Of a stretch of 64,000 nucleotides of DNA, positions 42,781-64,000 are shown piece by piece. Position 1 is the first letter of the stretch; each line of letters opens with the position of its first letter. The stretch is taken from the NCBI RefSeq assembly GCF_964019385.1, contig NC_088653.1:9143290-9207289 (forward strand), in the 5' to 3' direction. The notes under the pieces are model-generated. The model did no database searches. It had not been told where the DNA came from and saw only the letters and a program-made list of their open reading frames with translations. The translations under genes and the position numbers were made by a program. This DNA comes from Sycon ciliatum. Taxonomy: Eukaryota; Porifera; Calcarea; Leucosolenida; Sycettidae.

Positions 42781-42889
42781 AGAAGACATATAGATACGAG
42801 TTAAAAATAACTCTCCATCACTGTAACTGGATACTATATACAGTCAGAAAGTGCAATAACGTTACTATCATTATTTTTTCGGCAACGCA

Positions 42890-42890
<1 letters not shown>

Positions 42891-42932
<42 letters not shown>
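42891..42932 (+). repeat. (ATG)n array 1
   Basis: 14 ATG units; the leftmost triplet array of the nested cluster. Its left flank is LINE 3' sequence or unique DNA. Confidence 0.98.
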
Positions 42933-44030
42933 GCCAGGATCGGGGATCTGTGTCGTCGCCAAGCCGATATCAAGCCATGCTTGACTGCCGAGCAGCAGTT
43001 CTTGGTAGAAGTCGCAAATGAGAAGGGCCTATCATCGTGGCTGACGGTGGCTCGCCGTGGCAGCATGGAACAATTTTAAAGAAATCAGATTCCCGGGACG
43101 CTCTATGCACCCGGTATGGTCACAGATTGAGTGGACTGCCGGAGAAATGCTTGTGTGGAGTGGATTTCAGTCCCGCACATGCCCTCACTTGCGCTACTGG
43201 TGGGTACACAATCGCCAGGCACAACGAGGTGAGAGACCTTGTCGCCGGTCTCCTGAGAAAGGCAGGTGTTGTTGATGTCGAGACCGAGCCTAGATTATTG
43301 CCGTGCGGTGATGAGGATCTACCAGGGGAGCGTTCGCTCAACAGAAGTACTGAGGCTCGTCTTGACGTGCGGGCTCGGGGCTTTTGGTCGTGGCAACAAG
43401 ACGCTTTTTTTGATGTGCGGATTACCCATCCCGCAGCGTCCGTGTTGTCTCGATCAAAAGCCTTGAGTCAGCTGAAGTCCCATGAACGGGCAAAAAAGAA
43501 TCAATATGCCAGCCGCGTTGTGAATGTCGAGCGAGGATCCCCACTGGTGTTCTCGACTTTTGGTTTCAGCGGGCCTGAAACAACTCAATTCCTAAAGTCT
43601 CTTGCCTCTCTCTTTGTAGAGAGAAGCCAGGATCTCAAATATCCTGTTGCCATGAGTATGTTGCGTACCCGCCTGTCGTTTTGCCTCTTGAGGTGGGCCA
43701 TTACGTGCTTTCGTGGTTGCTGAGGGTCTTATAACAGACGGCGGGTGAATTCCTTTGTGGCCCAATGTGGGTGGGCCGCATAGTAAATATTTATGCTATG
43801 CCTCTAAACAATATCACTATGGATAACATCACATTTTTTAAATAACTATTTGGTAAAGTAACATCATCTGTCATTCAATATCCACCTGGTAAAATAATCA
43901 GCATTTGAATATCTAATTGGTACAAATCATTCAACTGTTAAATGTCATATTTTTACCTGAATATCTATCACGATTTTTGCACATAATCTCGGTTATCACC
44001 GTTTCAAGCCCATACAAGAGGCCGTTTCCA
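42933..44030 (+). pseudogene. family A element A1, 5'-truncated
   Basis: Starts directly after array 1, and its protein begins ARIGDLCRRQADIKPCLTAE. A frameshift near 43051 and a CGA-to-TGA stop (FRGC*, 43721) break it; element A2 shows the uninterrupted reading. It contains the CCHC (CLCGVDFSPAHALTC) and endonuclease (RLDVRARGFWSWQQDAFFDV) of restriction-like-endonuclease LINEs. The ~300-bp 3' untranslated part ends GCCCATACAAGAGGCCGTTT at 44027 plus CCA, then (ATG)n. Only the C-terminal third is present. Confidence 0.85.

Positions 44031-44089
<59 letters not shown>
44031..44089 (+). repeat. (ATG)n array 2
   Basis: About 19 units between the 3' end of A1 and the 5' end of B1. Confidence 0.98.
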
Positions 44090-44090
<1 letters not shown>

Positions 44091-44104
44091 CTTGAGCTGC
44101 GCTG

Positions 44105-44133
44105 GTGGAGGTCGGTTGGTGATTCTGGAGCTC
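44105..44133 (+). promoter_or_regulatory. conserved 5'-terminal motif of families B, C, E (B1 copy)
   Basis: GTGGAGGTCGGTTGGTGATT and the following CTGGAGCTC match, at the same distance (15-20 nt) from the 5' end, 59022-58994 (C1, minus) and 60916-60944 (E). It could be an internal promoter, a structured RNA or an RT-binding site; function is unknown. Confidence 0.6.
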
Positions 44134-44417
44134 TGGAGGTGGCTGGATTTGCTTGCAGACTGGGGAGGCTGGAGAAGAGGCCTTGGATGCGACTGCTACT
44201 CTGCTGCTGTTTTCCTGTGTTGTGTTGGGTTTTGTTGCTTTTTTCTCCTATTTTCTGTTCACTTTTTGAGTTAGCAGAGTTAGCATCTCGCCATTGTCTT
44301 GAACAGTACCCGCCTGATCAATCTCGCCAGAGCATCGTTCATCAACATCATTGCCACCTACCAGCAGTGGGCCTGCAGGGGCTGCCAGCCTCGCACCTCC
44401 AGCCGTTGGAATACTTT

Positions 44418-47400
44418 ATGCCGTGCTGCCAGTGTCAATCAAGTCGAAAGTGTGTGAGATGCAGCTGTGTTCGGCATGGGAGGAAGTGTATTGATTGCTA
44501 CCCAGGAAGGTCGCTACCTAGCACGTGCAACAATTCGTTATCTGCCTCACAGCCTTCTGGTGCTAGCAATGTCACTCGAACTGTCAACGCGCACCCTGCC
44601 AGCCAGCCACTTGCGGTTGGGTTTGCACCTCGCGGTGTTGATTGCGCTGGAGATAGATCGCAAGCTAGCGACAGTGACAGTGATTCACTGCATATAAATT
44701 CGACATTTCCGAGGAACTTGGTATGCGCAGATCATGCACGCGCTGGTTCTTCCCCTGCAAGTGATGTAATAACTGATCCATCCTCTCAGATTCAAGGTGA
44801 TGGCCTTGGCACCTCACGGGCTGGAGCGTCAACATCCAACATTCATCCCACAGGTTCTCAGGTGGAGCTCCTGGCTACCCTAGATGCTTCGGGTCCTGAG
44901 TCCTCTGGACAAGCGGCAGACAGCGGTGATGCCGGCACCTCGTCATTACCGGCCGGCGATTTCGGAGGCGCGGTTGGTCGGCCGGCTCATCGCATTGGTG
45001 GGCGGAGCGGGGTGGATCCTGCGCCCTCCCTGTTGCCAGGAGCTGCTGCTGTGGGGCAGGGCTCGGCCCAGCCTGCTGCTGCTGCTTCTCCGGCTGCCGC
45101 GGTCGCTCGGCAGACTTCTACATCACAGGTCTCTCCTGCGGGTGCCAGAGTTAATACTATGAGCAGTGATGATTCCCTATCTTCGAACACCTCCCTCAAC
45201 AACGACATATCCCGAGCGTATGAGAAGGTGGTGACCTGGCGGAGAAACTTATTCAACGTTCCATTGGGCTCGGCTGGTGGTGATTTTGTTGACGTGCTCA
45301 CTGGGCTCATCAAGGGTTTCACCAATGGCTCCTCATTACGACCAGTTGCATGGAAGGCCGTCGGTGTTGCCTGCCACCTGCTTCTCCAGCGTCCGCATGA
45401 TTCTAAGATGATGTCAAACTATAGCGACCATTTACGGCGTCGACTCACTCTATGGAAATCTGGCCGAATAGATGATCTGACTACTGAAGGAGAGTCCCTT
45501 CAGGATCGTCTCAAGCCCCGGTACTCTACCTCGTCTGGTGGAGGAGAGAAGAGTGATATCACATTCAGCAACCTGGTATTTTCGGGAAAAATTAAGTCTG
45601 CCATTCGCTACCTGTCCAGTGATTCGTCCAATGATGTGCTGGGTATGACAGATGTAGTGGACGAAGAAACTGGAACTACCGTGAAGGAGGCACTGTTGCA
45701 AAAACATCCACCTGCTGCCGAGCCCCCGGTTTCGATACTTCTCGCCGGCGACCCGGAGCCAATCAACAGTATAGTGTTCCAGAAAATCACACCGGAGCTC
45801 ATCCGACGTCTGGGCCGACAGATGAAGGGGTCCTCGGGCCCATCTGGTCTGGACTCTGACGCGTGGTGCCGGATGCTAACCTGTTATCGCAAATCGTCAG
45901 ATGGTCTCTGTACTGCTCTTGCCAGCTTTGCCCAATGCCTGTGCTCGGAGGACTTGGATCCGGAACACCTATCCGCATTTACCGCCGCTAGACTTATTCC
46001 ATTGGACAAACACCCAGGTGTGCGGCCGATTGCGGTGGGTGAAGTGTTCCGCCGGCTTGTGTGTCGTGCCGTTATGCGGGTGCTTGAGTCCGATGTACTG
46101 CGTGCTACTGCTCCCATGCAATTGTGCATTGGGGTGCCGTCTGCCTGTGAGGCAGGGGTTCATGCAATGCAGGAGTTGTTCGCACGAGAGGACACGGAAG
46201 GCATCTTGTTTGTAGATGCTACGAATGCGTTCAATTCATTGAATAGAAACGCGGCCCTCCATAACGTGCCCTATGTATGCCCCGCTATGGCAAAGGTGTT
46301 CCAGAACACGTACAGTTCTTCAATTCGTCTCTTCGTCTCTGGCGGCGGGGAGATTGAGTCACTGGAGGGTACTTGCCAGGGCGATCCGCTGGCCATGGCT
46401 CTGTATGGTATCGCTACAGTCCCGATGATTCGGCGCCTCCAGGAATCCAATCCATCTGTGGCTCAGGTTTGGTACGCGGACGACGATTCTGCAGGTGGCC
46501 GCGTTTCTTCATTGTCCACATACTGGGGAGACATAAGCCAACTGGGCCCTGACTATGGATACTTTCCAAACCCACAGAAATCAATGTTGCTGGTCAAGCC
46601 GGAGCATGAGGAAGAGGCCCAGCGCCTCTTCTCCGCCACTGGAGTTACCATCAAGACCAGCGGCAACCGTCACCTCGGCGGAGCGATTGGCAGTGAGGAG
46701 TTCTGCTCTGCCTTCATGGCCAAGAAGGTGGATAAATGGAAGCAGGTTCTGGATTCCCTGACGGGGATGGCTGTCACTCAGCCTCAGGCCGCATACACCG
46801 TTTTTACGAAGGGTCTGTCATCCACATGGACATACCACTTGCGTTGCTCACCTTGTTCGGCTGAGATACTGGCCGAGCTTGATGAGAGGATCAATGATTG
46901 CCTGATACCTGCCCTTCTGGGGGATGGCGTTCGTCCTGGTAGCCCTGAGAGAGAGCTGATGTCATTTCCAGTGCGTCTTGGTGGTTTGGCCCTCCCTCTG
47001 TTGCAGGACAGTGCACCAGCAGAGCTCGCAGCATCCTTGAGCATCACAAAGCCTCTTGTTCAGCTACTGTTGACTGGCACATATGCGAACCCTCCAAGCG
47101 TGCCTGGTGATATGGCAAGGAGCGATTTGTCGGATACTGCCCAGTCAGAGGGCTCCGGTGATACAACCCAGGAGGTTGCCGACCGAGTGAGGCTCTCCAA
47201 TCATGATCCCGTCCGCGATGCTGTTGGGGACACCCGCCAGCTGGCACGCTCGACTCGGACAAGCAAAATGCGGAGCCTATGCAGCCGGCAACAAGACATT
47301 AAGGCGGACTTGAGCTCGGAGCAACAATTTCTTGTTGAAATCGCGTCCGAAAAGGGAGTATCGTCATGGTTGACTGTTGCCCCGCGGTGGCAAGATGGAA

Positions 47401-48122
47401 CCATCCTAAAGAAATCCGACTTCCGTGATGCCCTGTGCATCCGCTATGGGCGAAGGTTGAGTGGGCTACCCGATTCATGTGTTTGTGGTGTGCCTCTCAG
47501 CCCCGCTCATGCACTTACCTGTGCCACTGGCGGCTATACCATTGCCCGTCACAATGAGGTGCGGGACTTGGTTGCTGGACTACTGAGGGAGGCTGGAGTG
47601 GTGGACGTAGAGACGGAGCCCCGGCTATTGCCCTGCAGCAGTGAGCATTTGCCTGGTGGTCGTTCCCTCAACCGATGCGCAGAAGCTCGTCTGGATGTGC
47701 GGGCTCGCGGCTTTTGGTCGTGGCAACAGGACGCTTACTTTGATGTGCGGATCACTCATCCCGCAGCGTCTGTGTTGTCTCGATCACAAGCCCTGAGTCA
47801 GCTGAAGTCTCACGAGCGAAACAAGAAAAATCAATACGCCAGCCGTGTGGTTAACGTGGAGCGCGGCTCCTTCACGCCACTTGTGTTCTCGACGTACGGC
47901 TTTAGTGGCCCAGAAACTACTCAATTCCTGAAATCATTGGCCTCCCTGTTTGTTGAGCGCCATACTGAACTGAAGTACCCACTAGTAATGGGCATACTAC
48001 GCACCCGTTTGTCTTTCTGCTTGCTGCGATGGGCAGTCACCTGCTTCCGCGGTTGCCGCGGTTCGTACGGCAAGAGGCGACAGCCGAACTCATTTCTGGC
48101 CCAGTGCCGCCAGGCGGAGTAG
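44418..48122 (+). CDS. family B polyprotein: Cys-rich N-terminus, RT, CCHC, restriction-like endonuclease
   Basis: 1234 codons without interruption. I chose the ATG at 44418 because families C and E begin with the same MPCC motif; the frame also runs upstream through the ATG array. Residues 1-40 form a Cys cluster (CCQCQSSRKCVRCSCVRHGR, then KCIDCYPGR). A low-complexity Ser/Ala region follows. RT motifs: LFVDATNAFNSLN (about 597), TCQGDPLAMALYG (about 652) and VWYADDDSAGG (about 684). CCHC: CVCGVPLSPAHALTC (about 1021). Endonuclease-like: ARLDVRARGFW-x-DAYFDVRITHP (about 1091-1115), then HERNKKNQY and VVNVERGSFTPLVFS. This is the architecture of R2/R4-type site-specific LINEs; here target choice appears to be (ATG)n. 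All catalytic motifs are present, so activity is possible. Confidence 0.9.
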   Translation: MPCCQCQSSRKCVRCSCVRHGRKCIDCYPGRSLPSTCNNSLSASQPSGASNVTRTVNAHPASQPLAVGFAPRGVDCAGDRSQASDSDSDSLHINSTFPRNLVCADHARAGSSPASDVITDPSSQIQGDGLGTSRAGASTSNIHPTGSQVELLATLDASGPESSGQAADSGDAGTSSLPAGDFGGAVGRPAHRIGGRSGVDPAPSLLPGAAAVGQGSAQPAAAASPAAAVARQTSTSQVSPAGARVNTMSSDDSLSSNTSLNNDISRAYEKVVTWRRNLFNVPLGSAGGDFVDVLTGLIKGFTNGSSLRPVAWKAVGVACHLLLQRPHDSKMMSNYSDHLRRRLTLWKSGRIDDLTTEGESLQDRLKPRYSTSSGGGEKSDITFSNLVFSGKIKSAIRYLSSDSSNDVLGMTDVVDEETGTTVKEALLQKHPPAAEPPVSILLAGDPEPINSIVFQKITPELIRRLGRQMKGSSGPSGLDSDAWCRMLTCYRKSSDGLCTALASFAQCLCSEDLDPEHLSAFTAARLIPLDKHPGVRPIAVGEVFRRLVCRAVMRVLESDVLRATAPMQLCIGVPSACEAGVHAMQELFAREDTEGILFVDATNAFNSLNRNAALHNVPYVCPAMAKVFQNTYSSSIRLFVSGGGEIESLEGTCQGDPLAMALYGIATVPMIRRLQESNPSVAQVWYADDDSAGGRVSSLSTYWGDISQLGPDYGYFPNPQKSMLLVKPEHEEEAQRLFSATGVTIKTSGNRHLGGAIGSEEFCSAFMAKKVDKWKQVLDSLTGMAVTQPQAAYTVFTKGLSSTWTYHLRCSPCSAEILAELDERINDCLIPALLGDGVRPGSPERELMSFPVRLGGLALPLLQDSAPAELAASLSITKPLVQLLLTGTYANPPSVPGDMARSDLSDTAQSEGSGDTTQEVADRVRLSNHDPVRDAVGDTRQLARSTRTSKMRSLCSRQQDIKADLSSEQQFLVEIASEKGVSSWLTVAPRWQDGTILKKSDFRDALCIRYGRRLSGLPDSCVCGVPLSPAHALTCATGGYTIARHNEVRDLVAGLLREAGVVDVETEPRLLPCSSEHLPGGRSLNRCAEARLDVRARGFWSWQQDAYFDVRITHPAASVLSRSQALSQLKSHERNKKNQYASRVVNVERGSFTPLVFSTYGFSGPETTQFLKSLASLFVERHTELKYPLVMGILRTRLSFCLLRWAVTCFRGCRGSYGKRRQPNSFLAQCRQAE

Positions 48123-48333
48123 GGTGCTGCCTTTGGCCTCAACTTAATATAATGCTATTTTGGTTTTTTCCCCTTTTATTACTCTGTGTTCATTGCTTGT
48201 TTTTGTATTGATTTACTTCCTTGACTGCTTTTGTGTTTCATCATTTTCCGGTTGGTTTTGTGTTGATTTCCCCTGTTCACTTTACATATTGTAATGATAT
48301 ACATTTGCTTTGCCCGTAAAAGAGGCTTTTCTC

Positions 48334-48368
<35 letters not shown>
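48334..48368 (+). repeat. (ATG)n array 3
   Basis: Joins the 3' end of B1 to D1. Confidence 0.98.
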
Positions 48369-48369
<1 letters not shown>

Positions 48370-48635
48370 AAAGTAGTTTTAATGACCTGATGTTTGTTTT
48401 TTATATTTGTAGTTCTATTGTTGACATCTTTTGTCTTTTCTTTGGGTTAAAAGGTTAACTTCATCCTCGTGTTCCTATTGCCTTGTATTGGAATTTGCCC
48501 ATAAAAGTGGCTACGGTGTGATAATGCATTTCTATAAATTATTTCGTGTTTTAACATTATTTTCAGAAAATTGCTCTTACAATACCTTGCGTTTTATATT
48601 CATAATATTGTTGCCCGTAAAAGCGGCTTGGTCAC
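48369..48635 (+). mobile_element. family D 3' end (D1)
   Basis: A 267-bp non-coding fragment ending TTGCCCGTAAAAGCGGCTTG plus GTCAC before (ATG)n; its last ~217 bp recur at 60301-60518 at a different array. It also has an inner copy of the end motif (GCCCATAAAAGTGGC, about 48497). The coding part of family D is not in the window. Confidence 0.75.

Positions 48636-48668
<33 letters not shown>
48636..48668 (+). repeat. (ATG)n array 4
   Basis: 11 units between D1 and C0. Confidence 0.98.
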
Positions 48669-50185
48669 CGCATGCAGCATACTCTGCGTTGACCCATGGC
48701 TTAGTCAACAGATGGAACTATGTGTTTCGAACTATGTCTGTTTCTGCGGAGGACTTGGCGCCGTTGGAGCGGGAGCTTCACTCCTCACTGCTACCGGAGC
48801 TCGTGGGACAACCGAGCGTGCCTCTGAAAGACATTGATATTCTAAAGCTCCCGACACGGGATGGTGGGATGGCCCTTCCGGACCTCACGACTCGACCACG
48901 GTTTGAGCACCAGGGCTCCAAGCAAGTGTCCGGACCTATGGTGAAGGAGGTTCTGGGCGATTTCGCTAAGGATAGCGATCCAATTTCTCTCGCTGGAGAT
49001 GTGCCGGCTTCTGCAGATACTGCTGACCGTGGTGGAGCGTCTCCCACTCCCACGATGACGGCAACGGAGGTGCAGCCGCGGGAGGTCGCTGGCAACTCAA
49101 ACCCTGGACCGGATGTGGCTGCTGATGTTGCTGGTGCTGGTACCCCCTTTCAGAGGATGATCGATGAAATGCGTCACAAAAAGCGTGTCGTCCACACCGA
49201 AAACCGGGAGCGCGCAAAGGCAGCCAGGAACAAAATAGTGGACACGAGCGATGAGATGACGAAGCGACGAATAGAAGAACACACGGAGAAAGGATCATCC
49301 TCATGGCTGAGCGTGCTGCCCCTGGCGGAGCATGGCTTTCGTCTCACCAAGCGTGACTTCCGGGATGCTCTGGCATTGAGATATGCATGGCCGCTAGCCA
49401 ATACACCAGCAACCTGTGTGTGTGGTGAGCTGTTCTCAGTTGAGCATCAGCTATGTTGCGCCAGGGGCGGCTTCCCGACACTTCGTCATAACGAGATACG
49501 TGACCTGCTGGCGAGGGAATTGACTGAAGTCTGCACTGCCGTTTCGACAGAACCAGCGCTGCAACCTCTTTCTGGTGAGAGGTTTCCTCTTCGGTCAACG
49601 AACCGCCGAGAGGATGCGCGCCTGGACATAGCCGCTCGAGGGTTTTGGACCCGTGGGGAGGAAGCTTTTTTTGATGTAAGGGTATTTTGCCCAGATGCTC
49701 CTTCCTACGGGTCCAGAACCCTTCCTGCATTGTACCAGCAGCACGAGCGGCGTAAGTGGAACGAATATGGGCCAAGAGTCACAAATGTAGAAAGAGCCGC
49801 TTTCACACCTCTCGTGTTCTCTGTGCATGGTGGTTGTGGGAGGCTGTGCAATGTGTTCCTCAAGAGACTGTGCCAGATGCAGGCCGAGTCATCGGGATCT
49901 CACTATTCCCAGGTCATTGGTTTACTCCGCTGTCGGCTGTCTTTTGCTTTGCTGCGTGCTGCTGTGTTGTGCATACGTGGGGCTCGGTCACGGTACCACC
50001 ATCCGGCGAGATGTTTTCATGATGTCTCGATTGCCGTGGCCGAGTCAGGTCTAGTTTGTTAAGTATCGTGCTGTGTCCTGACTGTGCATGCGGGATTGGT
50101 ATGGCGCTTACCCTTTTGTTGCTGTTTTGTTGCTTTCATGCCTTTAAGCATGTAATTGTGTTCAATTGTTGTATTTCATGGAAAG
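48668..50185 (+). pseudogene. family C element C0, 5'- and 3'-truncated
   Basis: From array 4 the frame reads AYSALTHGLVNRWNYVFRTM and continues without a stop to 50062: CCHC CVCGELFSVEHQLCC, endonuclease RLDIAARGFWTRGEEAFFDV and ERAAFTPLVFSVHGG. It is nearly identical to the matching part of C1 (54820 onward). The 3' untranslated part stops about 120 nt short of the C1 3' end at CATGGAAAG, followed by nine A and (TCA)n. RT is missing. The flank polarity differs between the two sides (ATG left, TCA right). Confidence 0.85.
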
Positions 50186-50190
50186 AAAAA

Positions 50191-50222
<32 letters not shown>
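50186..50222 (+). repeat. A9 plus (TCA)n array 5; polarity switch
   Basis: A homopolymer followed by nine triplets in the opposite strand sense to array 4. It separates plus-strand C0 from minus-strand A2. Confidence 0.95.
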
Positions 50223-52206
50223 TGGAAACGGCCTCTTGTACGGGCTTGAAACGGTGATAACCGAGATTATGTGCAAAAATCGTGATAGATATTCAGGTAA
50301 AATATGACATTTAACAGTTGAATGATTATTACCAAATAGATATTCAAATGCTGATTATTTTACCAGATAGATATTGAATGACAGATGATGTTACTTTACC
50401 AAATAGTTATTTAAAAAATGTGATGTTATCCATAGTGATATTGTTGAGAGGCATAGCATAAAAATTCACTATGCGGCCAAACGACACTGGGCCACAAAGG
50501 AATTCACCCGCCGTCTGTTATAAGACCCTCGGCAACCACGAAAGCACGTAATGGCCCACCTCAAGAGGCAAAACGACAGGCGGGTACGCAACATACCCAT
50601 GACAACAGGATATTTGAGATCCTGGCTTCTCTCTACAAAGAGAGAGGCAAGAGACTTTAGGAATTGAGTTGTCTCAGGCCCGCTGAAACCATAAGTCGAG
50701 AACACCAGTGGGGTGAACGATCCTCGCTCGACATTCACAACGCGGCTGGCATATTGATTCTTTTTTGCCCGTTCATGGGATTTCAGCTGACTCAAGGCTT
50801 TTGATCGAGACAACACGGACGCTGCGGGATGGGTAATCCGCACATCAAAAAAAGCGTCTTGTTGCCACGACCAAAAGCCCCGAGCCCGCACGTCAAGACG
50901 AGCCTCAGTACTTCTGTTGAGCGAACGCCCTCCTGGTAGATCCTCACCACCGCACGGCAATAATCTAGGCTCGGTCTCGACGTCAACAACACCTGCCTCT
51001 CTCAGGAGACCGGCGACAAGGTCTCTCACCTCGTTGTGCCTGGCGATTGTGTACCCACCAGTAGCGCAAGTGAGGGCGTGTGCGGGACTGAGATCCACTC
51101 CACACACGCATTTCTCCGGCAGTCCACTCAATCTGTGACCATACCGGATGCATAGAGCGTCCCGGAAATCTGATTTCTTTAAAATTGTTCCATGTTGCCA
51201 GCGGGGAGCCACCGTCAGCCACGATGATAGACCCTTCTCATTTGCGACTTCTATCAAAAACTGCTGCTCGGCAGTCAAGCATGGCTTGATATTGGCTTGG
51301 CGACGACACACATCCCCGATCCTGGCCGCACGCGTTGTTCTTGCAATGTGCCGTGCATCGCCCACTGCATCACGAACCGGATCATGTGTCAAGATTAATT
51401 GATCCGGATTCGCCAGCACACCAATATTTCCATCAGGCTGTGCGATTTTCTCCTGGGCTTCCATCTGTGGCACACAGGAAACGTCAGGAGGGCTTGTGTA
51501 ATCGCCGGTCAGCAGCAGCTGTACCAGAGGCTTGGTCACTGCCCTTGACGCAATAAATTCAGCAGGTGCACTAGCCGCCAGAACCGGAATGGCAAGGCCA
51601 CCATACCGGACGGGGAATGTCAACAGCTCTCTCTCAGGACTATCAGGACGGACACCATCGCCAAGTAGGGCCGGAAGCAGACGTTCATCAATCACGGTGT
51701 CGATCGCCGTCAGGAGCTCTGGGGAACATGGCGAACAACGAATGTGATAGGTCCAGGAGCTCGACAAACCTTTAGTTAATACGCTATAGGCTGCCTGTGG
51801 CTGTGTGGTTGCCATTGAAGACAATGTATCCAATACCCGTCCCCACTTCTGGACACGCCGCTCCATAAAGGAAGAACAAAAATCCTCGCTGCCAATCACG
51901 CCTCCAAGATATCGGTTACCATCAGTTGTGATGACGACGCCAGAGCCCTGGAACTGTAGCCGAGCATCCTGTTCATACTGAGGCTTTACAAGGAGAACGG
52001 TTTTCTTGGGATTCGGGAAATACCCATAGCCTGGACCAATCTGACTGATATCGTTCCAATATGACCATAGTGATGTTATCCTACCTCCGGCTGAATCGTC
52101 ATCTGCATACCATCCCTGCTTTACTGATACGTTGGTATCCCGAAGTTGCCTGATCAACGGGACTGTCGCAAGAGCGTAAATAGCCATGGCCAACGGATCC
52201 CCCTGG
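50223..52206 (-). mobile_element. family A element A2, 5'-truncated, minus strand
   Basis: Contains an open frame (52193-50469, 574 codons) with the end of RT (motif C QGWYADDDSAGG, then NPKKTVLLVKP), CCHC CVCGVDLSPAHALTC and endonuclease RLDVRARGFWSWQQDAFFDV. The 5' truncation falls inside RT motif B: the sequence GATGATGCCAGGGGGATCC (minus) fuses the array to the GDPLAMA codons. The 3' end is CCCGTACAAGAGGCCGTTTC plus CA, then (ATG)n on its sense strand, as for A1. Confidence 0.88.

Positions 52207-52239
<33 letters not shown>
52207..52239 (-). repeat. (CAT)n array 6
   Basis: 11 units, ATG on the minus strand; joins A2 and B2. Confidence 0.98.
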
Positions 52240-52674
52240 GAGAAAAGCCTCTTTTACGGGCAAAGCAAATGTATATCATTACAATATGTAAAGTGAACAG
52301 GGGAAATCAACACAAAACCAACCGGAAAATGATGAAACACAAAAACAGTCAAGGAAGTAAATCAATACAAAAACAAGCAATGAACACAGAGTAATAAAAG
52401 GGGAAAAACCAAATAGCATTATATTAAGTTGAGGCCAAAGGCAGCACCCTACTCCGCCTGGCGGCACTGGGCCAGAAATGAGTTCGGCTGTCGCCTCTTG
52501 CCGTACAAACCGCGGCAACCGCGGAAGCAGGTGACTGCCCATCGCAGCAAGCAGAAAGACAAACGGGTGCGTAGTATGCCCATTACTAGTGGGTACTTCA
52601 GTTCAGTATGGCGCTCAACAAACAGGGAGGCCAATGATTTCAGGAATTGAGTAGTTTCTGGGCCACTAAAGGGC
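52240..52674 (-). pseudogene. family B fragment B2 (3' end), minus strand
   Basis: The last ~72 codons (FVERHTELKYPLVMGILRTR within it) and the complete 3' untranslated part of family B, ending exactly at the B 3' terminus against (ATG)n on its sense strand. Confidence 0.9.
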
Positions 52675-52719
<45 letters not shown>

Positions 52720-52773
52720 TGGAAACGGCCTCTTGTACGGGCTTGAAACGGTAAAAAAAAAAAAAAAAAAAAA

Positions 52774-52774
<1 letters not shown>
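52675..52774 (-). repeat. (CAT)n array 7, 33-bp family A 3' end, A22 run
   Basis: 15 CAT units (52675-52719), then 33 bp identical to the A2 3' terminus (52720-52752, minus), then 22 A on the plus strand (52753-52774), after which the array sense flips to (ATG)n. Confidence 0.9.

Positions 52775-52803
<29 letters not shown>
52774..52803 (+). repeat. (ATG)n array 8
   Basis: 10 units; in frame with B3, giving it a run of Met codons. Confidence 0.98.
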
Positions 52804-52804
<1 letters not shown>

Positions 52805-54431: not shown

Positions 54432-54531
54432 ATGATGATGATGATGATGATGATGATGTGTTGATTTCCCCTGTTCACTTTACATATTGTAATGATATAC
54501 ATTTGCTTTGCCCGTAAAAGAGGCTTTTCTC

Positions 54532-54566
<35 letters not shown>

Positions 54567-54600
54567 TTTTTTTTTTTTTTTTTTTTGATGATGATGATGA
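54432..54600 (+). repeat. (ATG)n arrays 9-10 with 73-bp B 3' end and T24 run
   Basis: Array (54432-54458), the last 73 bp of family B (54459-54531), array (54532-54562), T24 (54563-54586) and a short (GAT)n (54587-54600) up to the 3' end of C1. On the sense strand of C1 this reads (TCA)n, A24, (TCA)n. Confidence 0.9.
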
Positions 54601-54819
54601 AGCCACTTCTTTGGGCAAACAAAACACAATTTCCCAAGATGAAGGAGTGGAACCCTACACAAATAATAGTTTAAATGAATCCAACGCAAAGATCGTTTTT
54701 CCATGAAATACAACAATTGAACACAATTACATGCTTAAAGGCATGAAAGCAACAAAACAGCAACAAAAGGGTAAGCGCCATACCAATCCCGCATGCACAG
54801 TCAGGACACAGCACGATAC

Positions 54820-57800
54820 TTAACAAACTAGACCTGACTCGGCCACGGCAATCGAGACATCATGAAAACATCTCGCCGGATGGTGGTACCGTGACCGAGC
54901 CCCACGTATGCACAACACAGCAGCACGCAGCAAAGCAAAAGACAGCCGACAGCGGAGTAAACCAATGACCTGGGAATAGTGAGATCCCGATGACTCGGCC
55001 TGCATCTGGCACAGTCTCTTGAGGAACACATTGCACAGCCTCCCACAACCACCATGCACAGAGAACACGAGAGGTGTGAAAGCGGCTCTTTCTACATTTG
55101 TGACTCTTGGCCCATATTCGTTCCACTTACGCCGCTCGTGCTGCTGGTACAATGCAGGAAGGGTTCTGGACCCGTAGGAAGGAGCATCTGGGCAAAATAC
55201 CCTTACATCAAAAAAAGCTTCCTCCCCACGGGTCCAAAACCCTCGAGCGGCTATGTCCAGGCGCGCATCCTCTCGGCGGTTCGTTGACCGAAGAGGAAAC
55301 CTCTCACCAGAAAGAGGTTGCAGCGCTGGTTCTGTCGAAACGGCAGTGCAGACTTCAGTCAATTCCCTCGCCAGCAGGTCACGTATCTCGTTATGACGAA
55401 GTGTCGGGAAGCCGCCCCTGGCGCAACATAGCTGATGCTCAACTGAGAACAGCTCACCACACACACAGGTTGCTGGTGTATTGGCTAGCGGCCATGCATA
55501 TCTCAATGCCAGAGCATCCCTGAAGTCACGCTTGGTGAGACGAAAGCCATGCTCCGCCAGGGGCAGCACGCTCAGCCATGAGGATGATCCTTTCTCCGTG
55601 TGTTCTTCTATTCGTCGCTTCGTCATCTCATCGCTCGTGTCCACTATTTTGTTCCTGGCTGCCTTTGCGCGCTCCCGGTTTTCGGTGTGGACGACACGCT
55701 TTTTGTGACGCATTTCATCGATCATCCTCTGAAAGGGGGTACCAGCACCAGCAACATCAGCAGCCACATCCGGTCCAGGGTTTGAGTTGCCAGCGACCTC
55801 CCGCGGCTGCACCTCCGTTGCCGTCATCGTGGGAGTGGGAGACGCTCCACCACGGTCAGCAGTATCTGCAGAAGCCGGCACATCTCCAGCGAGAGAAATT
55901 GGATCGCTATCCTTAGCGAAATCGCCCAGAACCTCCTTCACCATAGGTCCGGACACTTGCTTGGAGCCCTGGTGCTCAAACCGTGGTCGAGTCGTGAGGT
56001 CCGGAAGGGCCATCCCACCATCCCGTGTCGGGAGCTTTAGAATATCAATGTCTTTCAGAGGCACGCTCGGTTGTCCCACGAGCTCCGGTAGAAGTGAGGA
56101 GTGAAGCTCCCGCTCCAACGGCGCCAAGTCCTCCGCAGAAACAGACATAGTTCGAAACACATAGTTCCATCTGTTGACTAAGCCATGGGTCAACGCAGAG
56201 TATGCTGCATGCGGCTCTGATGCGGCATAATTTGCTAAAATCTCTGTATGTTTCACCCACTCTTCTACTTTTGTCTCTTTGAATTCTCCGAGGAATGCCT
56301 CAGTCCCGATAGCAGCGCCCAGATACTGTACGCCACGAGACTTGACGTGGATAGTTGTGTCACCAAAAGTCTCGGCAGCCAAGGACTCAAAGCCAGGCTT
56401 GACGAGTAGTTGCGTTTTTGTTTCGTTGATGTTGTAGCCGTATTTTTGGCCCTCTTCCTTAAGGAGGTTGTACCACTTTCGCAATGGGGAGAGCCCTCCG
56501 GCAGCTGCCGAGTCATCTGCAAACCATCCCTGGCACACATCTGCAACATTGGTTCCGACTGACCTGACGAGAGGGGTGAGAGCCGTGGCATAAATGGCCA
56601 TCGCAAGAGGGTCACCCTGGGTTGTGCCCTCCTGTGACAATAAAGACTGGCCACCACGCACAAAGAGGGATGCAGGGTCTTGGTAAGTATTCAATGTTAT
56701 TTGTGCTAGCGGGGGGCATACTCGAGCAATATTGTGCAATGCAGCGCGGCGATTCAAGCTATTGAAGGCATTGCGAGCATCGACTAGCAACACTGCCTCA
56801 GCCTTTTCCGAAGCAAAGGCAGCCGTCATTGAGTGCACCATAGCCTCCAACCCAGCCGGGATGCCCGTGCAGGCCTGAACTGGTCCGCAGGCTTGCATAA
56901 TGTCGGGTTTCATCAGAAACAATGCCGCCTTGGAGCACAGTCTACGAAACACTTCACATACCCCTATTGGCCGAACGCCAGGGTTCTTGTTGAGGGCAAT
57001 GAGTCTGCAAGCTGTGTACGGTGTGAGTGAGCCGGAGGGGACTGAGTCGGTACAGATCAAGCGTGTGAAGCACGCCACTGCCTCACGCAGATCAGTAGAT
57101 GCACCTTTGTAACATGTGCATAGCCGCCGCCAAGCATCCGCGTCCAGGCCGGAAGGACCCGCAGAACCATGCAGAGAAAGGGCAGTGCGTTTGATCAACT
57201 CACCATTGACGCTGGCGAAGTAGATACTGCTGACATTGCCCGCCTCCTCCTGAAGCAGGATGTCCGGTGCTGCCGGTGCCGACCCCGGATGCTTCCCGAC
57301 GAGAATTTCACGGACTGACTGGGATTGATGAGAATCAGAAATGATGTCGTCCATGCCCAAGACCGGTTTATCACACTTGGGCTTGGTTGCATTATCCAGC
57401 ATTCTCAGTGCGCAGTGAACTCGGCCCTGTTCCATCAAGTGGCCAAACTCGTGAGCAGGGTCTTCGCCACGCCTGGATCTCCGATTCTGCGATGTCTTGA
57501 GCATATGCTGAATAGTTCGACCCTCCTGCACTAGCTCCATATAGGAACCCTGGATCCATAAATTTAGTCTGCGACGAGTGTGGTCAGAGCACTCTGCGGC
57601 AGGGCAATTCCGACCTACTCGCTGGAGCACCAACGCTGGAAGCAGGAAGAAACGATATAGAGCAGTGGCTTCCGCTCCTCGGGACGAATTGAACTTTTGA
57701 AGTTCTGACGTGAGTGTCCGAACAAACTCTTTGCAACACTGCCGGTCGGAGCCCGGAAGAGGTTCTTTTCCCAACTCGCCACCTCGTGATAGATGTCAGC

Positions 57801-58697
57801 CATGTCAAAAGGCATGGAGACCCGAGGGGTGGTGGGAACTGGAGAGGCAGCGTCCGGCTGGCTCGAGCCAAGCACCTGCGAAAATGGATCCACATCCGCA
57901 TGACCAGAACCCGTAGCCTGCAAATCGATATTCCCCGTAGATGGGCATAGCTGGGGTTGGGATGAGATAAGAGTGGACCGTGAGTCATCATCCCCATGCA
58001 CTGCCTGTTGTACAGTACCCCCAGCGCCCGAATCCACACTCATCAGTGGCGCACCAGAGTCAGATTCCTCCAAACTGGTAAGCAAGTCAACCTGAGATGC
58101 TGTCGGAATCAATGCAGTTGCAGCAGAGGTGCCACTCTGAATAATCTGGGGCTGAGAGCTCGGGACCCCAGGCACCGAAGCAACATTACGACAGGTGCCA
58201 AGTCCACCCCTCCCAGGATAGCAGTTACTACAAACTCTGCCAGCCCTGACACAAGCGCATCGTATGCACGTACCCCCTGCTTGGCAGCGACAACATGGCA
58301 CCGCGCTGGCTAGACCGCACTCGACTATGTCACTTGGGGAGAATGGCGAGGAATCAGAGCTGGGATGAATCCCAAGTGGGTGATCTACACGCAGCCAGGA
58401 GTCGACATCGCGCCTGCCACTGCCACAACCCTCGTCTGCAGATGCAGTGGATTCATCAGAGCTATCCTCCGGTGATATGTTTCGCTGAGATGGCTGGCTG
58501 GCTGAACATCCTCCACCACCACTGACCACAATACCAGCGCCAACAGCGCCAGCAGGCTGCGAGGCGATGGATTCAGTTTGGTTGTGACAAAGGCTAGGGG
58601 TAGCTCTACCGGGGTAGCAGTCCACACAGCGCTTCTTCGCACGAACACATCTGCATCTAACACATTTGCGACCAATCTGGCAGTTGCAGCACGGCAT
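54820..58697 (-). pseudogene. family C polyprotein with duplicated Cys cluster; one frameshift
   Basis: Starts MPCCNCQIGRKCVRCRCVRA (58697). A second related cluster (CCRCQAGGTCIRCACVRAGR, then VCSNCYPGR) follows about 135 residues later, so family C has two where B and E have one. The first frame runs to 57615; around 57735 the homologous reading moves to the second frame (57774-54820, 984 codons), so a single indel breaks the gene. RT: LLVDARNAFNSLNRRAALHN, TTQGDPLAMAIYA and QGWFADDSAAAGG. CCHC: CVCGELFSVEHQLCC. Endonuclease: ARLDIAARGFWTRGEEAFFD. It would act like the B protein but on the opposite repeat strand. Whether the shift is mutation or programmed cannot be told; no slippery site was identified. 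Confidence 0.88.
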
Positions 58698-58993
58698 CGC
58701 GACAGAACTGGCAGGGATAAGAGGTGTGAGGATGACTGAGGTGACAACTGCATCAGGACTGTACGACCAGAGTCACCAATCGTGTCAATCGTGTCAGAAA
58801 CTGCCTCCAGCAGCAAGGCAGTCACACTCCTCTCCTCACTGGTCTAACACTGGCCATTGGGTGGCCATTGGGTGCCTCCAAAGGATAAAATGTGATGACC
58901 ACTCCACCGAACAGCAACAGACAGCAGCGCCAGCCAAGTCAAGCTTCAAGCTTCTCAGTTCTCTCCAGCAACCAAGTCAACCAAGCAAACCAA

Positions 58994-59022
58994 GAGCCTC
59001 AGAATTGCCAACCGTTCTCCAC
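58994..59022 (-). promoter_or_regulatory. conserved 5'-terminal motif (C1 copy)
   Basis: On minus: GTGGAGAACGGTTGGCAATT then CTGAGGCTC, aligned with the B1 and E copies at the same place near the 5' end. Confidence 0.6.
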
Positions 59023-59027
59023 TGAGC

Positions 59028-59035
59028 GATGATGG

Positions 59036-59082
<47 letters not shown>
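59028..59082 (+). repeat. (GAT)n array 11
   Basis: About 18 triplets with one GGT interruption, between the C1 5' end and a B 3' fragment. Confidence 0.98.
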
Positions 59083-59287
59083 CTGCCTTTGGCCTCAACT
59101 TAATATAATGCTATTTGGTTTTTCCCCTTTTATTACTCTGTGTTCATTGCTTGTTTTTGTATTGATTTACTTCCTTGACTGCTTTTGTGTTTCATCATTT
59201 TCCGGTTGGTTTTGTGTTGATTTCCCCTGTTCACTTTACATATTGTAATGATATACATTTGCTTTGCCCGTAAAAGAGGCTTTTCTC
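59083..59287 (+). mobile_element. family B 3' fragment B5
   Basis: The last 205 bp of family B (3' untranslated only), ending at the B terminus before (ATG)n. Confidence 0.9.
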
Positions 59288-59316
59288 ATGATGATGATGA
59301 TGATGATGATGATGAT
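59288..59316 (+). repeat. (ATG)n array 12
   Basis: About 10 units between B5 and B4. Confidence 0.98.
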
Positions 59317-59318
59317 CA

Positions 59319-60268
59319 TCGCGGTGGCAAGATGGAACCATCCTGAAGAAATCCGACTTCCGTGATGCCCTGTGCATCCGCTATGGGCGAAGGTTGAGTG
59401 GGCTACCCGATTCATGTGTTTGTGGTGTGCCTCTCAGCCCCGCTCATGCACTTACCTGTGCCACTGGCGGCTATACCATTGCCCGTCACAATGAGGTGCG
59501 GGACTTGGTTGCTGGACTACTGAGGGAGGCTGGAGTGGTGGACGTAGAGACGGAGCCCCGGCTATTGCCCTGCAGCAGTGAGCATTTGCCTGGTGGTCGT
59601 TCCCTCAACCGATGCGCAGAAGCTCGTCTGGATGTGCGGGCTCGCGGCTTTTGGTCGTGGCAACAGGACGCTTACTTTGATGTGCGGATCACTCATCCCG
59701 CAGCGTCTGTGTTGTCTCGATCACAAGCCCTGAGTCAGCTGAAGTCTCACGAGCGAAACAAGAAAAATCAATACGCCAGCCGTGTGGTTAACGTGGAGCG
59801 CGGCTCCTTCACGCCACTTGTGTTCTCGACGTACGGCTTTAGTGGCCCAGAAACTACTCAATTCCTGAAATCATTGGCCTCCCTGTTTGTTGAGCGCCAT
59901 ACTGAACTGAAGTACCCACTAGTAATGGGCATACTACGCACCCGTTTGTCTTTCTGCTTGCTGCGATGGGCAGTCACCTGCTTCCGCGGTTGCCGCGGTT
60001 CGTACGGCAAGAGGCGACAGCCGAACTCATTTCTGGCCCAGTGCCGCCAGGCGGAGTAGGGTGCTGCCTTTGGCCTCAACTTAATATAATGCTATTTGGT
60101 TTTTCCCCTTTTATTACTCTGTGTTCATTGCTTGTTTTTGTATTGATTTACTTCCTTGACTGCTTTTGTGTTTCATCATTTTCCGGTTGGTTTTGTGTTG
60201 ATTTCCCCTGTTCACTTTACATATTGTAATGATATACATTTGCTTTGCCCGTAAAAGAGGCTTTTCTC
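59319..60268 (+). pseudogene. family B element B4, 5'-truncated
   Basis: Begins at the codons for RWQDGTILKKSDFRDALCIR and stays open to TAG at 60057-60059: CCHC plus endonuclease only, then the B 3' end. Its product would be a lone nuclease domain of about 240 residues if expressed, but no promoter or start is evident apart from an internal Met at 59394. Confidence 0.9.

Positions 60269-60300
<32 letters not shown>
60269..60300 (+). repeat. (ATG)n array 13
   Basis: Joins B4 to D2. Confidence 0.98.
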
Positions 60301-60302
<2 letters not shown>

Positions 60303-60518
60303 GTTGACATCTTTTGTCTTTTCTTTGGGTTAAAAGGTTAACTTCATCCTCGTGTTCCTATTGCCTTGTATTGGAATTTGCCCATAAAAGTGGCTACGGT
60401 GTGATAATGCATTTCTATAAATTATTTCGTGTTTTAACATTATTTTCAGAAAATTGCTCTTACAATACCTTGCGTTTTATATTCATAATATTGTTGCCCG
60501 TAAAAGCGGCTTGGTCAC
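60301..60518 (+). mobile_element. family D 3' end (D2)
   Basis: 218 bp identical by eye to the corresponding part of D1, with the same terminus against (ATG)n but a different 5' truncation point. Confidence 0.85.
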
Positions 60519-60562
<44 letters not shown>

Positions 60563-60584
60563 AATGATGGTGATGATGATGATG
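60519..60584 (+). repeat. (ATG)n array 14
   Basis: Triplet array with ATA and GTG interruptions. Confidence 0.97.
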
Positions 60585-60770
60585 TTTTTCCCCTTTTATT
60601 ACTCTGTGTTCATTGCTTGTTTTTGTATTGATTTACTTCCTTGACTGCTTTTGTGTTTCATCATTTTCCGGTTGGTTTTGTGTTGATTTCCCCTGTTCAC
60701 TTTACATATTGTAATGATATACATTTGCTTTGCCCGTAAAAGAGGCTTTTCTCATGACACGCACGTATTG
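60585..60770 (+). mobile_element. family B 3' fragment B6
   Basis: The last ~169 bp of family B, then ATGACACGCACGTATTG, a short unique spacer not seen at other junctions. Confidence 0.85.
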
Positions 60771-60778
60771 TGATGATG

Positions 60779-60815
<37 letters not shown>

Positions 60816-60900
60816 ATGATGATGAAGCCACTTCTTTGGGCAAACAAAACACAATTTCCCAAGATGAAGGAGTGTGATGATGATGATGATGATGATGATG
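60771..60900 (-). repeat. (TGA)n, T32 run, C 3' fragment (C2), (TGA)n
   Basis: (TGA)n, 32 T (60783-60814), (GAT)n, about 50 bp of the family C 3' terminus in minus orientation (60825-60874), then (TGA)n to 60900. On the sense strand of C2: end motif, (TCA)n, A32, (TCA)n, the same tail layout as C1. Confidence 0.9.
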
Positions 60901-60915
60901 GATTCGGATGCGCTT

Positions 60916-60944
60916 GCGGAGATCGGTTGGACTTTTGGCTGCTC
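60916..60944 (+). promoter_or_regulatory. conserved 5'-terminal motif (E copy)
   Basis: GCGGAGATCGGTTGGACTTT then TGGCTGCTC, aligned with the B1 and C1 copies. Confidence 0.6.
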
Positions 60945-61329
60945 TGGTTGGAGGAAGAAGCTTGCTTGGCTGCTGAGCTGCTTGATTGCTGTTTGGTCTG
61001 GAGTTGACTGGAGCAGCTGTTATATCTTCAAGTTCTTCAAGTTGGCTAGGTTGGCAGTGTCCTGCCATTGGATGAAGTCTCATGGTGTGGTCGAATCCTT
61101 CGATCCTTAGCGCAAGGGCTGAGTCGTGCGTTGCGCCAAGCTGGATTACCTGGATTACCTACTTCGCTGCATTACGCGCTGAGGTGAAGTTCTTGCACCA
61201 CTCATGGGCGCTTATTGGTGACGGATGTTTCTCCTGCTGTTGCTGGTCCAGGTCGTGGCACTTGCCTTGCCGGGCTGTCGCCAGGGGTCTGCGCTATCCG
61301 TGTTCCGCGCTGACTGGGTGGTTGGCCTG

Positions 61330-64000
61330 ATGCCTTGCTGTAGGTGCCAGACGGGCAGAGCATGTACACGATGTTCGTGTGTAAAGGCTGGGAGAGTTTG
61401 TAGCGATTGCTACCCGAGTAGGTCTACGCCCAGCACTTGCTGTAATGTGTCTGCAGCTGCTGCCGGAGTGCTACGCAGCCAACCACCATCTATCGCCAGT
61501 GCTGGTGTGGACCCAGCTCTCTCTTGTGGTGTGGATGGTGCAAGTCTACAGTCGCGGCCTCCAGTTGTTCATTCTGTCTCTCGGGATTTGGCACCTCCTC
61601 TCACCGTGGCAAGTGCTTTTGATGCCTCTGTTATTAGCAGCCAGGAGGGTGATGGCGGCTCTAGTGAGAATGTCTCCGGCTCTAGTGAGAATGGCGAGGA
61701 GGGTGATGAGTGCTCCCCACACCTTGCCACGGTTAATCAAAGTGCCACCCTACCCTCTGGTCCTGGAGAGGATACCCGGCTCCTGGCTGATCTCGGTGGC
61801 AGCCAGCCAAGCAGTGTGCTTGACAGCTCCGAGGATTGTGGAATGAATACGGAGCACCGCGCTGGTGGCGGCCAGGTGGATGTGGAATCAACCGCTCAGG
61901 CACGGTCGAGGCCTATCCCCAGCCCAGCGGATGCCGGTAGTGGAGTTGCGAGCGTAGCCAGGGATCCGTTTTCCGCGAGAATCATTGATGCCTACGAGGT
62001 CGTGGTAGGCTGGAGACGCAATCTGTTCATTATACCCCATGGATCCGCTGGTGCAGCCTTTGTTGACGAGCTCGCGTCTTTGATCCTTGGGTTTGCGGAT
62101 GACTCCGGTAAAAGAGATGTCGCATGGAGAGCTGTGTGCGTTGCTTGTCACCTTCTCTTGCAAAAACCACACAAATCAAAGATAATGAAAAACCATAGTG
62201 AGCATCTTCGCAGACGTCTCGTGCTGTGGAGAGATTGCGACATTCCACAGTTACTGAGCGAGTGCCTTTGTATCCAGGCGCACTTGCCGGCGCCGGGCGG
62301 TGGCTCTCCCAGGCCCGCCTCACAGGAGAAGAGTGACGTGGTGTTCGCTAATCTCGTTTTTAACGGAAAGATTTCTTCTGCTGTTCGCTACCTGGCGCCA
62401 AACGCTTCTGGTGGAGTCCTTTCCATGAACGACATTGTGGATGATACCACGGGAGAGACGGTCCGTGACGCCCTGTTGAAAAAGCATCCGCCATCTGTTC
62501 CACCGCCTGCCTCGGCTCTCTTGCCGGGTGATCCCGAGATTGTCAACCAGGTCATCTTTCAACAAATAACCCCTGAGCTAATAAAGAAAATCGGTCGAGG
62601 CATGCAGGGTTCCTCTGGACCGTCTGGCGTGGACGCTGAGGCGTGGTGCCGAATGCTGACGTGCTATGACGCCTCGTCAAGGCGTTTGTGTTCATCCCTT
62701 GCTGCCGCGGGGAGGTGCATATGTACCGAGCGCCTTGCCGGTTGCGCGATGATTGGATTTACATCCGCTCGCCTAATACCCCTCGATAAGAAACCTGGCG
62801 TGCGCCCCATCGCTGTGGGCGAAGTGTACCGACGTATCATTGGTCGTGCCGTGATGTCAGTAGTGGAAAGTGATGTGCTGAGTGTAACAGCTCCTGTCCA
62901 ACTCTGTGTGGGCGTTCCATCTGCCTGCGAAGCCGCCGTACACACAATGTCCCGTCTGTTCGCTGGCCCGGGGGTTGAGGGTGTATTGCTTGTGGACGCC
63001 TCCAATGCATTTAATGCATTGAATAGGCAGGCTGCGCTACACAACATTCCACGTCTCTGCCCCCCGCTTGCAACGGTGTTTCGTAACACGTATGGATCAG
63101 TTTCCCGCCTGTTTGTGTCTGGTGGAGGTGAAATCGAATCGCGTGAAGGCACGGCTCAGGGCGACCCACTGGCTATGGCAGCCTATGCTGTGGCGATCAT
63201 GCCACTGGTCAGGCGCCTGGCTGCGACATGCCCCAGTGTTGTCCAATCTTGGTTCGCGGATGATGACTCGGGTGCAGGTCTTCTGGCTCGCCTTCGGAAT
63301 TACTGGGATGAACTCCGGGCCATTGGCCCTGGTTATGGTTACTACCCGAACGCGTCCAAAACTGTTCTGATCACAAAGCCAGAGCATCTGGATAGGGCCA
63401 GGGAAATCTTCTTCGACAGTGGCATCCAGATTACCGCCGCTGGCGGCCGATTCCTCGGGGGCGCACTAGGGTCAGAAGATTTCTGCCGCTCTTATATGGG
63501 GCAGTTGGCGGATAGATGGGCTGGTGACCTGCGCACCTTGTGTGAGATCGCCCAGACTCAACCTCATGCGGCGTATACCGTCTTCTCCAAGGCCCTGTCA
63601 TCACGGTGGACTTACCACTTGCGCTCAATGCCGTTCTCGACAGGCGTTTTGGAGGCCTTGGATGAGATCCTCAGTGACCATTTCCTGCCGGCTTTGCTGG
63701 GTCATGGGATTGCGCAGGCCAGCCACCAACGTCGGCTAATGGCTTTGCCTGTCCGACATGGGGGCCTCGCCGTCCCCATATTGTCGAAGACGGCGGCTGG
63801 GGAACATCAGGCCTCTGTCAGTGCCACTGATCCTCTGGTTCAGCTTGCGCTATCATCGCCTTCGCCTGACTGTGCTGGTGCGTCACTGCCTCCGCCTGCG
63901 GGACCGCCTCTGCGTCATCTTAACCAACCACCTATGGGACCACCCCCGCATCATTGTGCTAATATGTCACCGCCTCTGCCTGCTGGGTCGCCTTTGCCTG
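61330..64000 (+). CDS. family E polyprotein (partial): Cys-rich N-terminus and RT
   Basis: From ATG at 61330 (MPCCRCQTGRACTRCSCVKA, as in B and C) the frame is open for 890 codons to the window edge; I read it codon by codon and saw no stop. The Cys cluster ends CSDCYPSRSTPSTC. After a Ser/Pro/Gly-rich region, AYEVVVGWRRNLFIIPHGSA aligns with B. RT motifs: LLVDASNAFNALNRQAALHN (about residue 554), TAQGDPLAMAAYA (about 610) and SWFADDDSGAG (about 640). The last visible part is a Pro-rich repeat. CCHC and endonuclease would lie beyond the window. The absence of stops suggests a young, possibly functional copy. Confidence 0.88.
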   Translation, partial: MPCCRCQTGRACTRCSCVKAGRVCSDCYPSRSTPSTCCNVSAAAAGVLRSQPPSIASAGVDPALSCGVDGASLQSRPPVVHSVSRDLAPPLTVASAFDASVISSQEGDGGSSENVSGSSENGEEGDECSPHLATVNQSATLPSGPGEDTRLLADLGGSQPSSVLDSSEDCGMNTEHRAGGGQVDVESTAQARSRPIPSPADAGSGVASVARDPFSARIIDAYEVVVGWRRNLFIIPHGSAGAAFVDELASLILGFADDSGKRDVAWRAVCVACHLLLQKPHKSKIMKNHSEHLRRRLVLWRDCDIPQLLSECLCIQAHLPAPGGGSPRPASQEKSDVVFANLVFNGKISSAVRYLAPNASGGVLSMNDIVDDTTGETVRDALLKKHPPSVPPPASALLPGDPEIVNQVIFQQITPELIKKIGRGMQGSSGPSGVDAEAWCRMLTCYDASSRRLCSSLAAAGRCICTERLAGCAMIGFTSARLIPLDKKPGVRPIAVGEVYRRIIGRAVMSVVESDVLSVTAPVQLCVGVPSACEAAVHTMSRLFAGPGVEGVLLVDASNAFNALNRQAALHNIPRLCPPLATVFRNTYGSVSRLFVSGGGEIESREGTAQGDPLAMAAYAVAIMPLVRRLAATCPSVVQSWFADDDSGAGLLARLRNYWDELRAIGPGYGYYPNASKTVLITKPEHLDRAREIFFDSGIQITAAGGRFLGGALGSEDFCRSYMGQLADRWAGDLRTLCEIAQTQPHAAYTVFSKALSSRWTYHLRSMPFSTGVLEALDEILSDHFLPALLGHGIAQASHQRRLMALPVRHGGLAVPILSKTAAGEHQASVSATDPLVQLALSSPSPDCAGASLPPPAGPPLRHLNQPPMGPPPHHCANMSPPLPAGSPLP

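Follow-up and report, generated by a model that had tools for sequence, protein, structure and literature searches.

Telomere-repeat long interspersed nuclear elements (LINEs) such as SART/TRAS and MoTeR insert repeatedly into a short repeat and form stacks separated by that repeat, and the LINE Tx1L targets a DNA transposon. Microsatellites are described as targets of Dong, of Togen, which uses (TG)n, and of some HERO families in two papers (PMC4640811, PMC3636483), the former of which lists transposons among LINE targets and the latter of which names MoTeR; passages of PMC7650587 add nothing further on microsatellite targets. RTE LINEs of Lepidoptera leave (TGA)n tails, which are described as a source of microsatellites (PMC2887409). 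Here we analyse a 64,000-nucleotide stretch of the genome of the sponge Sycon ciliatum (NC_088653.1, positions 9,143,290 to 9,207,289 of the forward strand; hereafter the window), part of which is a stack of LINE pieces separated by triplet arrays. This stack is very probably a nest of R2-group non-long-terminal-repeat (non-LTR) retrotransposons specialised for (ATG)n.

Like Dong, Togen and some HERO families, this guild consists of LINE families with a restriction-like endonuclease (RLE) that are confined to a simple repeat; unlike them, several families of two lineages share one triplet, occupy its opposite strands and lie in stacks. The likeness to R2, which inserts into the 28S ribosomal DNA (rDNA), lies in the profile similarity of reverse transcriptase (RT) and RLE to R2 chains in the PDB, and target-primed reverse transcription is assumed by analogy; however, the guild targets a microsatellite instead of rDNA and has a cysteine motif in its N-terminal part. 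In contrast to the repeat used by SART/TRAS and MoTeR, the target here is scattered inside chromosomes and is partly made by another LINE. As with Tx1L, one mobile element serves as the target of another, but the part used is the microsatellite tail of a LINE. This tail-bearing element, LINE Z, resembles the RTE elements of Lepidoptera in its apurinic/apyrimidinic (AP) endonuclease and in the repeat class of its (GAT)n tail, whereas the available passages of PMC2887409 do not describe the use of such tails as targets by another LINE group. Neither a guild of this kind nor a LINE tail serving as a target was found in the literature, a survey that covered titles and the beginnings of abstracts, with most subscription papers and all Repbase reports outside it. 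LINEs that target microsatellites have precedents; the variant described here, in which several families use both strands of a repeat and the tail of another LINE, is as far as we found a new one.

Structure of the stack

The window contains 19 ATG/CAT runs of at least 11 bp, all of them within 42890-60900 and none in 1-42889; in the Tandem Repeats Finder listing of the window, the only period-3 array outside the stack lies at 14541-14567. Between the arrays are 16 element pieces, in agreement with the initial annotation, which had named at least 16 segments in ~21 kb, and ATG-class triplets flank nearly every piece on both sides. There are three exceptions to the pattern of triplets at the junctions: poly-T lies 5' of a 33-bp family A end, ATGA and ~12 bp of other DNA separate piece B6 from the array that comes next, and poly(A) precedes the triplets at family C ends. 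The features are as follows, with families denoted by letters.

35841-42889, + strand: LINE Z (AP-endonuclease frame 35841-36875, RT frames 40939-42422, 3' end 42423-42889)
42890-42932, + strand: (GAT)n tail of LINE Z, the array where the stack starts
42933-44030, + strand: A1, family A, 5'-truncated
44031-44089, + strand: (ATG)n array
44090-48333, + strand: B1, family B, apparently full-length, with RT and RLE
48334-48368, + strand: (ATG)n array
48369-48635, + strand: D1, truncated 3' end of family E
48636-48668, + strand: (ATG)n array
48669-52773, no strand given: inverted block C0-A2-B2-A3 including (CAT)n arrays
48669-50193, + strand: C0, family C, truncated, short poly(A) at its end
50223-52206, - strand: A2, family A, truncated
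52240-52674, - strand: B2, family B, truncated
52720-52752, - strand: 33-bp family A 3' end, poly-T on its 5' side
52805-54431, + strand: B3, family B, truncated
54459-54531, + strand: 73-bp family B 3' end
54601-59027, - strand: C1 element, the window's longest C copy; antisense to the ATG strand; after its end come (ATC)n, poly(A) and (ATC)n again
59028-59082, + strand: (ATG)n array, slightly imperfect
59083-59287, + strand: B4, family B, truncated
59317-60268, + strand: B5, family B, truncated
60301-60518, + strand: D2, truncated 3' end of family E
60585-60753, + strand: B6, family B, truncated
60826-60874, - strand: C2, family C, short 3' end, 32-bp poly(A)
60875-60900, + strand: (TGA)n array upstream of E
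60901-64000, + strand: E, family E with its 5' end present, interrupted by the edge of the window; D is the 3' end of this family

B1 begins at the same base as the B copies in two fetched loci, L009 and L012. Pairwise identity between copies of the window is 99.5% for B1 and B3, 99.9% for C0 and C1 and 96% for A1 and A2; the copies are young.

Arrays at the 3' ends

We searched the genome (538 Mb, 313 contigs) and fetched 20 regions of 8.2 kb around the best-ranked other B copies outside the window. After merging they form 18 stretches, which lie on 11 contigs; with the window added, all 19 contain pieces of these families next to (ATG)n. Across the 18 stretches and the window, ATG directly follows 75 of the 76 3' ends of families A, B and E, and a perfect array of at least 9 bp follows 69 of them. 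Since the fetched stretches had been picked through B, B ends were also counted genome-wide without that selection. The 22-mer at the B 3' end has 229 exact matches in the genome, and 200 of these continue directly into ATGATGATG; intact 3' ends of B thus do not lie mostly in non-repeat DNA, the outcome that the initial annotation had named as refuting its reading. From the 29 others, the 12 among the first 100 listed matches were inspected and the other 17 were left out. Imperfect ATG arrays account for five of the 12; four run after 0-2 units into another element (E in two cases, C and G in one each, the C piece identified by eye), two enter other DNA after one or two units, and one enters (GTG)n. 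A B copy ending in a long (GTG)n, perhaps an off-target triplet, is seen at L148 (G000:C4:40232680-40232880).

Homology searches gave a similar picture for the matches that continue into an array: 43/43 for A, 41/41 for E and 51/51 for B, where two more of the 53 rows consist of the array alone. These counts are biased towards target specificity because the 40 best candidates were scored in each search (out of 146, 341 and 262) and array-bearing copies score higher. For family C, (ATC)n follows all 20 copies fetched from 43 C matches, and in 14 of the 20 a poly(A) of 7-31 separates the C end from (ATC)n, the usual order being (ATC)2-4, poly(A), (ATC)n. Six G ends could be read, three with an A-rich tail, two running straight into (ATC)n and one into other sequence. 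Most genomic copies are therefore flanked by one simple repeat, as expected of microsatellite-specific LINEs.

Two lineages on opposite strands

For strand scoring we required an array within 45 nt; among the 107 segments, 15 had none that near on the 3' side and 19 had none on the 5' side. On the 3' side the A, B and E segments are all sense to ATG (75 sense, 0 antisense) and the C segments all antisense (17 antisense, 0 sense); on the 5' side the counts are 71 sense and 1 antisense for A, B and E, and 15 antisense and 1 sense for C. The sole exceptions among the scored segments are C0 and the 33-bp A end, which form the two edges of the block at 48669-52773. Because turning this block round restores the strand rule, it is most simply explained as an inversion. 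Flips are also seen elsewhere: E and F face each other in L100 and B and E in L147, G is sense in L137, and a C/G-like piece is sense in L044.

A tree of 111 sequences places A, B, E and F within one 14-leaf clade (0.997) and C and G within a 5-leaf clade (0.998) across the midpoint root, the G sequence being partial. Families A, B, E and F insert sense on the ATG strand without poly(A); C and G take the reverse orientation and in most cases carry poly(A). Together, the strand counts and the split in the tree indicate two lineages on opposite strands of one repeat.

Families and encoded proteins

The initial annotation had counted five families in the window; there are four (A, B, C and E), because D is the 3' end of E. 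L017 holds a single element, with a frame of 1363 aa, in which E body, RLE domain and D follow each other without a break; L010, L018 and L021 show this order too. Two more families occur in stacks outside the window, F with 53% to B and G with 43% to C, and positions 6116-8167 of L017 may represent yet another one (34% to E). A EukProt protein prefixed scpid, the prefix of the calcareous sponge Sycon ciliatum, is 98.6% identical to family E over 863 aa.

The Pfam domain RVT_1 scores 48.3 bits on the C1 element, above the cut-off of 29.6; on B1 (22.1 bits) and E (23.2 bits) it stays under the cut-off, yet with E-values below 1e-3, and the A2 fragment gives no match to it. An alignment of 29 rows reveals, after the RT, a C-x-C...H...C motif, a conserved H and then E-P, A-R-x-D and F-F-D-x-R columns. 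The corresponding profile of 29 relatives matches R2 chains in the PDB over the RT (best E-value 1.9e-7) and 8gh6, which we take to be R2 of Bombyx, in the RLE region (E-value 0.008); no Pfam family matches the CCHC/RLE region. Alignment and profile place a C-terminal CCHC motif and an RLE after the RT in one protein. The guild elements accordingly read as non-LTR retrotransposons of the R2 group, each predicted to encode a single protein with RT and C-terminal RLE.

B and E each have one copy, and C has two, of an N-terminal cysteine motif, CCxC...C-x-RC-x-CV...C-x-x-CYP (window positions 44420-44540 on the + strand, 61330-61450 on the + strand and 58200-58700 on the - strand); no Pfam family exceeds its cut-off there. 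This motif may bind the repeat. The C1 element is read in two overlapping frames at 54820-58772 with a switch near 57.7 kb.

Relatives on bacterial genome contigs amount to two loci, L029, on a contig of a Poribacteria metagenome-assembled genome and with an unreadable 3' end, and L030 (25% identity); none was confirmed on the viral contigs searched. Runs of a single residue, which would point to triplet flanks in other places, were sought in 120 relatives; only P0001 was positive, which is the family B protein itself with the B 3' end read through GAT repeats. A shared 3' GCC...GGC hairpin was considered and dropped: z-scores over five folded 31-nt ends range from -0.72 to 0.30.

LINE Z and the supply of arrays

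LINE Z carries its own (GAT)n tail, and the stack in the window, as well as others, starts on such tails. Pfam domains above the cut-off in Z are PF03372 (35841-36872) and RVT_1 (41766-42419). Z thus combines AP endonuclease and RT, as RTE-clade LINEs do, provided that its endonuclease portion and its 3' end derive from a single copy, as we infer; gypsy-like gag/pol frames lie inside Z at 37069-40291. The names of its relatives, e.g. craniofacial development protein 2-like, a name that we presume to link to RTE, suggest that Z is RTE-like. Exact Z 3' ends are followed by (GAT)3 in 107 of 120 cases, a short tandem-repeat tail. In a sample of 40 Z tails, 36 have no guild element within ~250 bp and four hold E, G, C or F.

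The (ATG)10 30-mer has 3994 overlapping matches in the genome, and its backward control (GTA)10 has 499,500, so a far commoner triplet is available. By estimate the (GTA)n satellite occupies roughly 1.5 Mb of the genome. None of the element ends that were read uses (GTA)n, although no search was aimed at its use by the guild. From the first 22 listed (ATG)10 places, all on contig C1, we fetched 20 stretches covering 21 of them. Each of them borders a guild element on one side or both, at least 17 of the 20 on both. The stretches are not independent: they fall into a few clusters, and L115/L116 look like a second copy of the pair L112/L113. These four loci (G000:C1:2090500-2100030 and 2124420-2133940) show two pairs of identical-looking junctions ~34 kb apart; part of a stack seems to have been duplicated.

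Perfect arrays have a median length of 33.5 bp after 76 guild ends versus 20 bp at 36 empty Z tails (p = 8e-6), Z being the one unrelated LINE included in the comparison. This difference fits renewal or lengthening of the array with each insertion and a choice of longer arrays alike.

On balance we lean towards a two-tier LINE community: an RTE-like LINE scatters (GAT)n, two RLE lineages land on its opposite strands, and each insertion would leave a longer array than the one it entered, so that stacks would be self-sustaining and most long ATG arrays of the genome would end inside stacks. The preference for (ATG)n could be real and the Z tails incidental, the main targets being ordinary arrays of other origin; this concerns the role of Z alone, and we consider it possible, if the less probable account. 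Weighing on its side, five of the eight readable stack edges are not known Z ends, and just 6 of 60 sampled Z tails are occupied. Speaking for Z, the other three edges are Z ends, four families (C, E, F and G) were caught on Z tails in the sample of 40 copies, and all 20 sampled long ATG stretches already lie in a stack, which leaves that sample with no free long array of other origin. One short ATG array that is not a known Z tail, at L023 (G000:C1:31307324-31315497), adjoins a long (GT)n and houses a piece of B together with the end of a C element.

5' junctions and the integrity of the elements

Specialisation for (ATG)n, as proposed in the initial annotation, gains support from the 5' flanks in addition to the 3' flanks and the strand rule. 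The 5' flank is readable for 96 of the 107 segments, and 80 of the 96 pass a strict test for an array. In nine of the 16 failures an array is present but is imperfect, very short or followed by a few filler bases; the other seven comprise two breaks inside E, an E 5' end with other DNA, a B piece directly adjoining the end of an E element, the C end in L023, the poly-T before the 33-bp A end and one split element. At 63 truncated 5' junctions the mean microhomology to the array is 1.63 bases versus 0.68 expected, the maximum of 5000 simulations being 1.11. This excess suggests that the array was already present when the 5' end was joined.

These observations bear on the view that the triplets are 3' tails made by the elements' own reverse transcriptase, as in the I factor and RTE, with insertion anywhere and stacks formed by chance or in open chromatin. 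Two findings speak for it, and hence against target specificity: the 3' junctions of A, B and E are locked to the ATG phase, as if the array had been copied with the RNA, and LINE Z shows that such tails occur in this genome. The 5' flanks, with their arrays and microhomology, largely refute it. Element bodies, moreover, are hardly ever hit: the 107 segments include one split element, interrupted by other DNA, although arrays make up 2.4% of the sequence examined. Insertion anywhere also fits poorly with the clustering of B ends, which among the first 100 listed form 56 neighbour pairs within 15 kb versus 0.56 expected, 54 of the 56 on one strand. We therefore regard a tail-only origin as very improbable.

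Equally remote is the idea that the assembly created the stacks, or that tandem duplication and recombination between microsatellites were their main source: simple-repeat joints do make unequal exchange and misjoining easy, inverted blocks are present and the L115/L116 junctions repeat those of L112/L113, all of which count against repeated insertion. Yet the 79 gaps between neighbouring pieces measure 43 bp at the median and 135 bp at most, far below long-read length, families alternate, and 4 of the 40 Z copies sampled have an element sitting right on the tail. Assembly collapse at the triplets, raised as a danger in the initial annotation, is unlikely because the stacks on the 11 contigs are differently ordered and have many different truncation points.

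Proposed mechanism and significance

Under specialisation for (ATG)n, the RLE would nick one strand of an ATG array, and the RNA's own triplet end, or poly(A), would meet the nicked strand and prime target-primed reverse transcription. The 5' end would then be closed through microhomology in the upstream array. Every insertion would leave a site at least as good for the next one, because the array stays on both sides and arrays beside guild elements exceed those of unoccupied Z tails; stacks could in this way grow from a small seed.

The case is one of a whole guild of site-specific retrotransposons on one triplet repeat, with the choice of strand divided by lineage and one supply of targets made by an unrelated retrotransposon. 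A comparison of the DNA-binding parts of the two lineages could test how site specificity evolves and is maintained, and the short, simple target makes these RLE elements interesting as tools for insertion, too.

Other features of the window

An open frame at 1-2592 has RT-like sequence and a GIY-YIG-like C-terminus; from these motifs it is presumably a Penelope-like element. Arrays of a 37-bp tandem unit occur at two places, and together with a 498-bp tandem duplication they occupy positions 19930-20076, 21696-22132 and 29182-30179.

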